From the NCBI GenBank assembly GCA_021817565.1, contig JAKAUP010000003.1, positions 62,001 to 126,000 on the forward strand: 64,000 nucleotides of DNA, given 5' to 3'. Every line of letters begins with the position of its first letter. Within the stretch, counting starts at the first letter, position 1. The stretch is from Microcaldota archaeon (GTDB taxonomy: Archaea > Micrarchaeota > Micrarchaeia > Micrarchaeales > Micrarchaeaceae). A program made the position numbers and the translations under genes. Below the pieces are notes generated by a model. That model searched no databases. It had not been told where the DNA came from and saw nothing but the letters and a program-made list of their open reading frames with translations. Below are positions 51,137 through 54,233 of the stretch, piece after piece.

Positions 51137-53005
51137 ATGGAAACCGCATATCATTTAATCAGAAATAAGGTCTCATCAGCGATACTTGATGCGGGAAGCG
51201 CATGCGGATATGAATTGGAACAGGAAGAGGTTTCAGCTTCAGTACTATTTTCCGATAAGTTCACAGACATCTCCTCGACAATAGCAATGAAGCTTGGAAA
51301 GAAGCTTGGAGTAGAGCCGGAAGAAGTTGCAAAGAAGATGATTGGGAGAATTTCTGTTGAGGGCATAGAAAGAGTCGCATTCGAAAACGGATTCATAAAT
51401 TTCTACATAAAAAGGGAGAATTTTTCCAGGAAGGTATTGGACGAGATGATGGGAAGTAGGTGGAAAGCTGCGCAAACTGGGAAACGAGGAAGAGTGATAG
51501 TAGAATACCCGAGCGTGAACCCTGCCCACCCCCTCCACATAGGACATGTTAGGAGCGCGCTGCTTGGGGATTCGATCTCCAACATACTTGTGTCGTGCGG
51601 ATATGAGATTGAGCGGGAGGATTACATAGATGATTTGGGGCTGCAGGCTGCTGAGGCCTTGTGGGGAGTTATGAATAGGGAGCGCATAGGCATCGCATTC
51701 AACCCTTCCAAAAAGTACGACCATATGCTTGGAGAGATATATGTTGCAGTAAACAGGAAGCTCAAGGAGGATGAATCTCTGATGGAGGAGATAAAGAGGA
51801 CTTCAGAGCTTATGGAGGAGAGCGGAACGTACGAATCGCTGCTACTACAGGACATGGTTGAAAGCTTTCTGAAGTCTGAGTACCAGACGCTTTTCAGGCT
51901 TGGTGTATTCCACGACATCATGGTGTGGGAAAGTACGATAATATATAACAAACTGCTTGAGAAGGCAATACAAAAGCTTGATTCGGAGAAGATTCTCGCG
52001 CGGCCAAAAGATGGAAAATATGGTGGATGTGTTGTCATAGATACAAAGAGATTGAAAGGTGCGCCGCAGTCGATGATGGAGGTTAAAGAAACGGAGAAGG
52101 TATTGGTAAGGAGCAATGGAGTACCTGGCTACCTCTCAAAAGACCTTGCATTCCATATGTGGAAATTCGGGATGCTTGACGTGAATGTGAGATTCAAAAA
52201 GTTTATGGAGCAGCCGAATGGGAAAACAGTATACAGCAGCTCGAAAGATGGGGAACAGATGGATTTTGGCAGAGCCGTAATGGCAGTAAACCCGATAGAT
52301 GCGCGGCAGAGCTATGAACAGGAGCTCGTTGGACTCATAATAAGGAATGCAAGCGCAGTTGAGCACAGGCTTGTGCACATGCCGTATGGGGTTGTGGAAC
52401 TTGAAAGTGGTGCGCTGTCCGGAAGGAAGGGCAGTTGGATAGGATTCACTGCGGACGATCTGATAAACGAGGCGGTAATGAAGGCTGAAACGCTCGTCTC
52501 TTCCAGGAAAGAGATAGATACAGTGGAACGCAAGAAGATAGCAGAGGCGGTCGCTATCGCGGCGATACGCTTCGAGTTTCTTAAGATATCATACGAGAAG
52601 AAGATTGTTTTCTCTTGGGAGAGGGCATTGAATTTTGAGGGAAACTCTGGCCCCTACTGCCAGTACATGTATACAAGGGCAGGTAGGATAATAAGTTCTG
52701 TACATGAAGAGCCTGAAATTTCTGAGGAATATAAGGTAAGCGATGTGGAGTTTGAACTTATAAAAAAGATGGCTGCTTATTGGGAGCAAGTTTCAAAGGC
52801 TGGCGATGAGATGAAGCCCCACATAGTTGCGGTGTACCTTAATGAACTGTGTGCGCTTTTTGGAAAGTTCTACGAGGCGAAGCAGGTTGCAAAGGCGGAT
52901 AACAAAATGGATATGAGAGCAAGGCTTGCAATAGTACGTGGGTTTTATGAGCTTGCGGGATGGCTCATGGACATACTCGGAATTAAGAGATTGGAAGCGA
53001 TGTGA
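51137..53005 (+). CDS. argS: Arginyl-tRNA synthetase
   Basis: A 622-residue class I enzyme: N-terminal additional domain, the H-I-G-H motif in H-P-L-H-I-G-H-V-R, D-Y-I-D-D-L-G, Y-L-S-K-D-L-A, and the anticodon-binding DALR domain with K-I-V-F-S-W-E-R-A-L and G-P-Y-C-Q-Y-M-Y-T-R-A. The KMSKS lysine region is S-G-R-K-G-S-W, as is usual for ArgRS that lack a strict KMSKS. tRNA-Arg(CCT) is encoded 61 bases downstream. Confidence 0.95.
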   Translation: METAYHLIRNKVSSAILDAGSACGYELEQEEVSASVLFSDKFTDISSTIAMKLGKKLGVEPEEVAKKMIGRISVEGIERVAFENGFINFYIKRENFSRKVLDEMMGSRWKAAQTGKRGRVIVEYPSVNPAHPLHIGHVRSALLGDSISNILVSCGYEIEREDYIDDLGLQAAEALWGVMNRERIGIAFNPSKKYDHMLGEIYVAVNRKLKEDESLMEEIKRTSELMEESGTYESLLLQDMVESFLKSEYQTLFRLGVFHDIMVWESTIIYNKLLEKAIQKLDSEKILARPKDGKYGGCVVIDTKRLKGAPQSMMEVKETEKVLVRSNGVPGYLSKDLAFHMWKFGMLDVNVRFKKFMEQPNGKTVYSSSKDGEQMDFGRAVMAVNPIDARQSYEQELVGLIIRNASAVEHRLVHMPYGVVELESGALSGRKGSWIGFTADDLINEAVMKAETLVSSRKEIDTVERKKIAEAVAIAAIRFEFLKISYEKKIVFSWERALNFEGNSGPYCQYMYTRAGRIISSVHEEPEISEEYKVSDVEFELIKKMAAYWEQVSKAGDEMKPHIVAVYLNELCALFGKFYEAKQVAKADNKMDMRARLAIVRGFYELAGWLMDILGIKRLEAM

Positions 53006-53066
53006 TGCTGTTTTGATTCCATGAAGAGCCAACAAGCTATTTAATGATATCAGCACAAATATACCA

Positions 53067-53159
53067 GGGCCTGTAGCTCAGCTTGGATAGAGCGATACCC
53101 TCCTAAGGTAGAGGTCGCGGGTTCAAAATAATTAAATTATGAAAATCCCGCCAGGCCCG
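53067..53159 (+). tRNA. tRNA-Arg(CCT) with an 18-base T-loop intron
   Basis: Acceptor GGGCCTG pairs with CAGGCCC, D-arm GCTC/GAGC, anticodon loop CTCCTAA (CCT at 53102-53104) and T-stem GCGGG/CCCGC. Between TTCAAA and T of the T-loop, 18 extra bases (53128-53145) occur. Their flanks form a canonical bulge-helix-bulge: helix TTCA/TGAA, bulges AAA and AAT, inner TAAT/ATTA. Cutting at the second bulge bases gives TTCAAAT, a perfect T-loop. The intron lies at position 59/60. Pair 27-43 (A-G) is mismatched. Confidence 0.88.
53128..53145 (+). other. tRNA intron (archaeal type, BHB-flanked)
   Basis: Predicted splice sites fall after 53127 and after 53145. The 18-base element begins with A, contains TAAT-TAA-ATTA as its short inner hairpin and ends in TGAAAA. 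It should be removed by the tRNA splicing endonuclease. Confidence 0.8.
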
Positions 53160-53171
53160 AACGGTGATTAT

Positions 53172-54233
53172 TTGGAAAAAAAGAAAAAAGATGGAAATGA
53201 AGGGATCAAGATTGTTGCGAAGAAGTCGGCGCCAGTTTTCATAGTAAAGCAGGCGACGAAGACAGGCGGTCTTGATTATCTGCACATAGCGCTTATACTG
53301 CTTGTGGTGATACTTGTTGGTCTTTCCCTTTCGCTCTCAAGGTTCAGCGCGATAAAAACCGTGAATTGCGAATATGGCATGGTAAATGGAACATGCACAA
53401 CTGCGCCACAGTACTTGTCCGATTCGGGCAATGCGATTATGGCTGCAAAGAGGATAATAGCAGGATACTCTGCGAGCAACACATCGTTTGCACTTCTCCC
53501 GTACTACACGATACCGAGTGAATACAATGCGACCTACATACAAAACATCGAGAAGTGGCTTGTATATACGCCTTACAATGACCCGTATACGAACCAGACG
53601 GTAAGCATGTTCCTGATACTCAACAAGAACTTTACATTAAACGAATCGCTTACCCAGACGATTCCACCTCCTTACATAACCGAGAATTACGTTGTGGCAA
53701 ACGGAACGGTAAAGATAGCTGGACACGTCTTATCTACTACTTCAAAGCCCATACCTGTAAACCTTGTGATAGATCCGTATTCAAAGGATTCGATTTCGGC
53801 GATAAAGGCAATGATAAACGCATCACAGTTGTACGGGAACAGTATAACCCCGGAATACGATTTCATATTCACAGGAGCTGCACAGAGCAAATATGCATCT
53901 TTTGGCACCGTTGAGACGCAGGCGATTGCCGCATACCTCTTCTGCGCGTCTAACCAGACGGGCTTCCCAGTCTTTGTGAACGACCTCTCTGTTGCGTTTA
54001 GTGGAAACCCAGTACAGGTATCAAGCCTCGACACAATAACAAACCAGTCAGGTATAAACTACACGTATATGAAAAATTGCGTGCTCAACTCGGCAAAGCC
54101 GCTTTATTACCAGTCGCTATTCGCGCAGTTTTACAATATAACCAGTACGCCGGAATTCATAATAAATGGGGATTACGAGACTGTGTCCACAAAACTTGAT
54201 GGTACGATAAAGTATGCGCTGTCCAGCGGGTAG
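53172..54233 (+). CDS. Membrane-anchored thioredoxin-fold (DsbA-like) protein without CXXC
   Basis: The 353-residue product has a basic Lys-rich N-terminus, one transmembrane helix (about residues 35-55) and an extracellular domain. The C-terminal half looks like a DsbA/thioredoxin fold: V-N-L-V-I-D-P-Y-S-K-D-S in place of D-P-x-C-P-x-C, the helical insert, and T-P-E-F-I-I-N-G (the cis-proline). The catalytic Cys pair is absent. TTG at 53172 follows GGTGAT by three bases and lies 13 bases past the tRNA; ATG at 53139, inside the tRNA intron, is rejected. Confidence 0.65.
   Translation: MEKKKKDGNEGIKIVAKKSAPVFIVKQATKTGGLDYLHIALILLVVILVGLSLSLSRFSAIKTVNCEYGMVNGTCTTAPQYLSDSGNAIMAAKRIIAGYSASNTSFALLPYYTIPSEYNATYIQNIEKWLVYTPYNDPYTNQTVSMFLILNKNFTLNESLTQTIPPPYITENYVVANGTVKIAGHVLSTTSKPIPVNLVIDPYSKDSISAIKAMINASQLYGNSITPEYDFIFTGAAQSKYASFGTVETQAIAAYLFCASNQTGFPVFVNDLSVAFSGNPVQVSSLDTITNQSGINYTYMKNCVLNSAKPLYYQSLFAQFYNITSTPEFIINGDYETVSTKLDGTIKYALSSG

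Follow-up and report, generated by a model that had tools for sequence, protein, structure and literature searches.

The literature already describes T-loop sites, BHB introns that lie outside position 37/38, epsilon2 enzymes, and permuted tRNAs with a 59/60 junction (PMC6379350, PMC4033280, PMC12397907, PMC3218864). T-loop sites occur among the noncanonical BHB tRNA introns of Thermoproteales and Thaumarchaeota (PMC6379350), and ARMAN-1 and ARMAN-2 are listed with multiple-intron tRNAs (PMC4033280). In vitro, the EndA of ARMAN-2 acts on pre-tRNAs of both the BHB and the BHL type, cutting among the latter the ARMAN-2 pre-tRNA-Cys(GCA) (PMC12397907). This enzyme belongs to epsilon2, a class reported to accept relaxed motifs. 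Permuted tRNA genes of Thermofilum pendens and Cyanidioschyzon merolae provide a further parallel, with a BHB junction exactly at 59/60 (PMC3218864).

The tRNA-Arg(CCT) gene described here, from a tiny archaeon of the Micrarchaeota, is complete and spans positions 53067-53159 of the window, the 64,000-nucleotide stretch of DNA that was analyzed; all features given by window position lie on its forward strand. The T-loop is interrupted at position 59/60 by the 18-nt insert ATAATTAAATTATGAAAA (53128-53145), with T54 at 53122, A59 at 53127, and T60 at 53146. The 5′ exon (53067-53127, positions 1-59) comprises the acceptor strand GGGCCTG, the D-arm, the anticodon loop CTCCTAA, the 5′ T-stem strand GCGGG, and the T-loop bases TTCAAA, and is identical in a genome of the same genus. 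The 3′ exon (53146-53159) supplies T60, CCCGC, CAGGCCC, and G73. ARAGORN does not recognize the unspliced gene as a tRNA but reads both exons as tRNA-Arg(cct) once the 18 nt are removed, leaving a normal seven-base T-loop, TTCAAAT. The Rfam match is merely at threshold (29 bits) and covers only a truncated stretch, 53067-53125. The first-pass annotation of this DNA, made from the letters alone, described a tRNA-Arg(CCT) that becomes readable only without 53128-53145, and its coordinates proved exact. Its assignment of a BHB-type intron at 59/60 also stands. The insert is thus a BHB-type archaeal tRNA intron at a noncanonical site, a kind already known. It is not a chance insertion, given the folding of the whole gene (z = -3.0), a compensatory change in the same-genus genome, and the behavior of the motif pattern against a reversed control.

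Two other classes of interrupted gene were rejected. A group I or II self-splicing intron needs a catalytic core of hundreds of nucleotides, whereas the insert has 18 nt and no Rfam intron match. A permuted or split tRNA does not fit two exons lying in normal order within 93 nt; unlike the 59/60-permuted tRNAs, this gene has a linear intron.

The gene lies in a conserved neighborhood. Upstream is the arginyl-tRNA synthetase gene argS (51137-53005), identified by Pfam, and downstream is a conserved protein gene (53172-54233) with no Pfam match. The start codon of the latter is uncertain, its mechanical ORF start (53139) falling within the tRNA intron. A putative TATA-like element, CTATTTAATGATAT (53037-53050), about 27 nt upstream of the tRNA, is identical in the same-genus genome. 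The order argS, tRNA-Arg(CCT), downstream gene is kept in many relatives (tblastn), and the Arg-CCT genes found in this setting are therefore orthologues.

This conservation bears on whether the gene is functional. It could be a decayed pseudogene with a small insertion, AGG being read by another tRNA such as tRNA-Arg(TCT), since this isoacceptor is present and could read AGG by wobble, and ARAGORN misses the CCT gene. Against this, the congener has the same exons despite an EndA of only 74% identity, T-loop inserts recur in syntenic orthologues throughout the order, and the tRNA-Arg(TCT) gene itself has a T-loop intron. Decay is accordingly a highly improbable reading. Codon counts in four genes of the window show AGG to be used for arginine more often than any other codon (33 of 86). 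A second or intact tRNA-Arg(CCT), which the first-pass annotation had named as evidence to the contrary, was not found in the 775-kb, 97%-complete assembly.

A strict hBHBh′ motif, with two 3-nt bulges and a 4-bp helix, can be drawn exactly from the sequence as GCGGG-TTCA-[AAA]-TAAT-TAA-ATTA-TGAA-[AAT]-CCCGC. Its central helix pairs exon bases 54-57 (TTCA, 53122-53125) with the intron strand TGAA (53140-53143). In a BHB, each bulge is cut after its second base, which would place the cuts at 53127/53128 in the 5′ bulge AAA (53126-53128) and at 53145/53146 in the 3′ bulge AAT (53144-53146). The inner hairpin (h′), TAAT-TAA-ATTA, occupies 53129-53139. The first-pass annotation called this a perfect BHB, which is accurate for the drawn structure but not for the calculated minimum-energy fold: in the isolated T-arm, the strict BHB comes to -7.3 kcal/mol and the best fold to -9.3, a gap of about 2 kcal/mol. 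The best fold retains the central helix and the 3′ bulge with the inner stem shifted, and pair probabilities outside the T-stem are 0.33-0.57. In the same-genus relative, the strict BHB lies 1.8 kcal/mol above the best isolated fold, which opens the central helix. Because the strict BHB is not the minimum-energy structure in either genome, these models suggest that the form acted on by the enzyme may be a relaxed BHB or a BHL.

A candidate enzyme for such substrates is encoded in the genome. Its single EndA gene (387 aa) matches the ARMAN-2 EndA 4fz2 with 535 bits, aligned over residues 12-388 of the 388-residue query. The catalytic residues Y236, H251, and K282 and the ARMAN-specific-loop residues Y160/K161 all have identical counterparts in the alignment (numbering as in PMC12397907 and PMC6379350). 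By sequence comparison, this EndA is orthologous over its full length to the epsilon2 splicing endonuclease of ARMAN-2, predicted to be a single three-unit chain, and it thus shares its ancestry with the enzyme of the ARMAN-1/ARMAN-2 system (4fz2, 9w2k). The broad-specificity endonuclease that the first-pass annotation proposed to look for is therefore present, in the form of an epsilon2 ARMAN-type EndA. A match to it occurs in 58 of the 59 genomes of the order, and an RtcB ligase gene was found in this genome. The endA gene (L001:1204-2367) lies tail-to-tail with the intron-bearing tRNA-Lys(CTT) gene (L001:1111-1201), a few bases apart. The same tail-to-tail pair is seen in the congener (G001), and the two genes lie within a few kilobases of each other in several other genera.

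From the gene, its motif, and these two enzymes, we infer that the insert is almost certainly a BHB-type 59/60 intron that is cut by the epsilon2 EndA and joined by RtcB. In the precursor, exon bases 54-57 (TTCA, a nearly invariant part of the T-loop) would pair with TGAA near the 3′ end of the intron, forming a 4-bp central helix between the AAA and AAT bulges. The epsilon2 (ARMAN-type) EndA would then make one cut in each bulge at the positions given above, and the exons would be ligated by RtcB into a tRNA-Arg(CCT) with the seven-base loop TTCAAAT. As bases 54-57 are nearly the same in all tRNAs, almost any T-arm should accommodate an intron that ends in YGRANN and is followed by T60. Such a fit would explain why the design recurs both within this genome, where about nine tRNA genes have it, and throughout the order, where it occupies the same tRNAs.

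Among the 46 tRNA-like matches of this genome, T-loop introns are found in at least nine tRNA genes, as read by eye: Arg-CCT, Arg-TCT, Arg-TCG, Lys-CTT, Ala-GGC, Cys-GCA, His-GTG, Ser-GGA, and Leu-CAA. ARAGORN reads none of these nine genes unspliced and eight of them spliced. The ninth, Ser-GGA, stays unreadable after T-loop splicing and has a second intron in the anticodon loop. The T-loop introns are 11-28 nt long, the shortest being the relaxed form in Leu-CAA (11 nt by eye), and 18 nt is an ordinary length. Two further tRNAs, Gln(CTG) (L043) and Leu(TAA) (L045), show apparent D-arm insertions, suggesting that other noncanonical sites are also used. An apparent tRNA-Trp has an anticodon-loop intron with the box C/D-like motifs GATGATGA (L047/L219, G000:C2 about 120609-120828).

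The design extends well beyond this genome. In a set of 59 genomes, consisting of this genome and others of its order, the motif pattern matches in 49, while a reversed control pattern gives 0-2 matches per genome. Confirmed tRNA context allowed 116 T-loop introns in 47 of the 59 genomes to be typed, with serine assignments made from the anticodon-arm sequence rather than by ARAGORN: Ser-GGA (25), Ala-GGC (20), Arg-CCT (15), Arg-TCT (14), Arg-TCG (11), Cys-GCA (11), Lys-CTT (8), His-GTG (7), probable Ser-CGA (4), and Lys-TTT (1). Pattern matches with no surrounding tRNA (e.g., L051, L055, L161, L165) were left out of this census. Intron length ranges from 12 to 34 nt with a median of 18 under the length-limited pattern, and longer introns exist beyond it. 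Introns of 12-16 nt are common, so the view of the first-pass annotation that 18 nt is near the functional minimum does not hold. It also overstated the rarity of the T-loop intron, which about nine tRNAs of this genome and most relatives share.

The Arg-CCT gene is recognizable in 45 of the 59 genomes, and the search for the same intron in relatives that the annotation had suggested finds a T-loop insertion in 31 of these and an intronless gene in 14. Fifteen of the 31 inserts have the strict motif, and the other 16 lie at the same place and are mostly longer. These counts also bear on whether the mature tRNA keeps the insert and has an enlarged T-arm. The T-arm and insert do fold as one long hairpin, but removal gives a seven-base loop every time, the inserts differ greatly in length and sequence and have only the splice motif in common, and 14 relatives manage with the plain gene. 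An enlarged T-loop is moreover expected to disrupt the elbow formed by the D- and T-loops. Retention is consequently highly improbable, and splicing remains the preferred reading.

Covariation across the 116 introns is in line with the drawn structure. At base 57, the exon-intron combination is A-T in 96 cases, G-C in 19, G-T in one, and A-C in none, and at base 55 it is T-A in 95, T-G in 14, C-G in six, and C-A in one; P values for these pairs are descriptive, given the Y-G-R-A built into the search pattern and the relatedness of the sequences. Inner segments form on average 2.9 consecutive closing pairs, compared with 0.6 after shuffling. The same-genus genome, whose tRNA-Arg(CCT) has an 18-nt intron between identical exons, offers a compensatory T-A to C-G change in the inner stem, from TAAT/ATTA to TAAC/GTTA (hairpin TAAC-AAG-GTTA). 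These covariation and pairing figures describe structural selection rather than prove it, but they agree with one another.

In a phylum sample, at least one match occurs in 68 of 103 genomes of the order itself and in 27 of 93 outside it. An Arg-like pattern finds 74 loci in GTDB species genomes: 60 with Micrarchaeota-type titles, four with other titles but near-identical introns, five chance matches, and five isolated candidates from other archaea, two of which are also readable unspliced. The chance matches (L087, L099, L102, L106, L117) follow intact tRNAs and were rejected. Candidate T-loop introns in other archaea (among L081, L122, L145, and L135, including the next) concern a Heimdallarchaeota Ala, a Nanoarchaeota Ala, and a Thermoproteota Lys tRNA, and the same group of loci includes a candidate 10-nt T-loop intron in a Micrarchaeota tRNA-Phe.

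Several genomes contain near-identical introns in different tRNA genes. The Arg-CCT and Arg-TCT introns of ARM-1 are identical (13 nt), and the 13-nt introns of Cys-GCA and Ala-GGC in Micrarchaeum A_DKE differ at one position. The A_DKE Ala-GGC also has the Cys-type T-loop TTCGAA, whereas Ala in its congener has TTCAAA. The Arg-CCT insert of A_DKE measures 21 nt. Genome G013 has near-identical introns in Arg-CCT, Ala-GGC, and Arg-TCG. Within-genome similarity between isoacceptor introns exceeds that under label permutation (mean, 0 of 2000; close-pair count, P about 0.0015). Copying between tRNA genes is the simplest reading of these sequences, but really close pairs number only three. For Thermoproteales, too, introns have reportedly been copied from one tRNA gene to another (Fujishima 2010, cited in PMC3293823). 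A separate case is seen in G001:C17:10455-11380 (L167, L168), where two copies resembling tRNA-Arg(TCG) lie 0.7 kb from each other and have near-identical T-loop introns; the second, possibly a duplicate in decay, is unreadable as a tRNA.

We tentatively consider, at somewhat less than even confidence, that the T-loop introns of this order are a spreading family. Introns of the form N...YGRANN could be copied into any T-arm by short-tract recombination and still be spliced, and the broad specificity of the epsilon2 EndA would make 59/60 a near-universal landing site. A different origin, which leaves the identity of the intron untouched, is that T-loop introns entered with elements that target tRNA 3′ halves for integration, or are kept as a safeguard against them. 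Such roles have been proposed (Randau and Soll; the Caldiarchaeum case, PMC3293823), and this genome has a second copy of the 3′ part of tRNA-Ala(CGC), 3.9 kb downstream of the gene. Yet no integrase was recognized among the ORFs looked at in this putatively mobile element, and intronless Arg-CCT genes persist in 14 relatives, making this explanation unlikely. The tRNA-Ala(CGC) repeat (L218; G000:C2:130002-130073 and 133943-133995) resembles an integrated-element border and encloses an AAA_14/DUF4143 ATPase gene and other ORFs.

Compared with noncanonical BHB introns of other archaea, those of this order share a BHB-type motif, a site outside 37/38, and predicted removal by EndA. They differ in using a single site, 59/60, in a fixed isoacceptor set across a Micrarchaeota order, and in being very short, with the T-loop itself serving as one strand of the central helix. 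Cys introns of relatives, including that of Micrarchaeum A_DKE, lie at 59/60, and the intron of the ARMAN-2 Cys substrate described in PMC12397907 may therefore be the same one. The concentration on one site and one tRNA set, together with the signs of copying between genes, is new to the open-access literature searched, which is weak evidence of novelty.

The T-loop introns form an order-wide, rule-bound set tied to a structurally known broad-specificity enzyme. Because a common finder, ARAGORN, misses such genes (0 of 9 here), Micrarchaeota may seem to have incomplete tRNA sets. The contrast at one orthologous site (31 genes with an insert, 14 without), combined with near-identical introns across isoacceptors, makes gain, loss, and copying testable in the cultivated strains ARM-1 and A_DKE.
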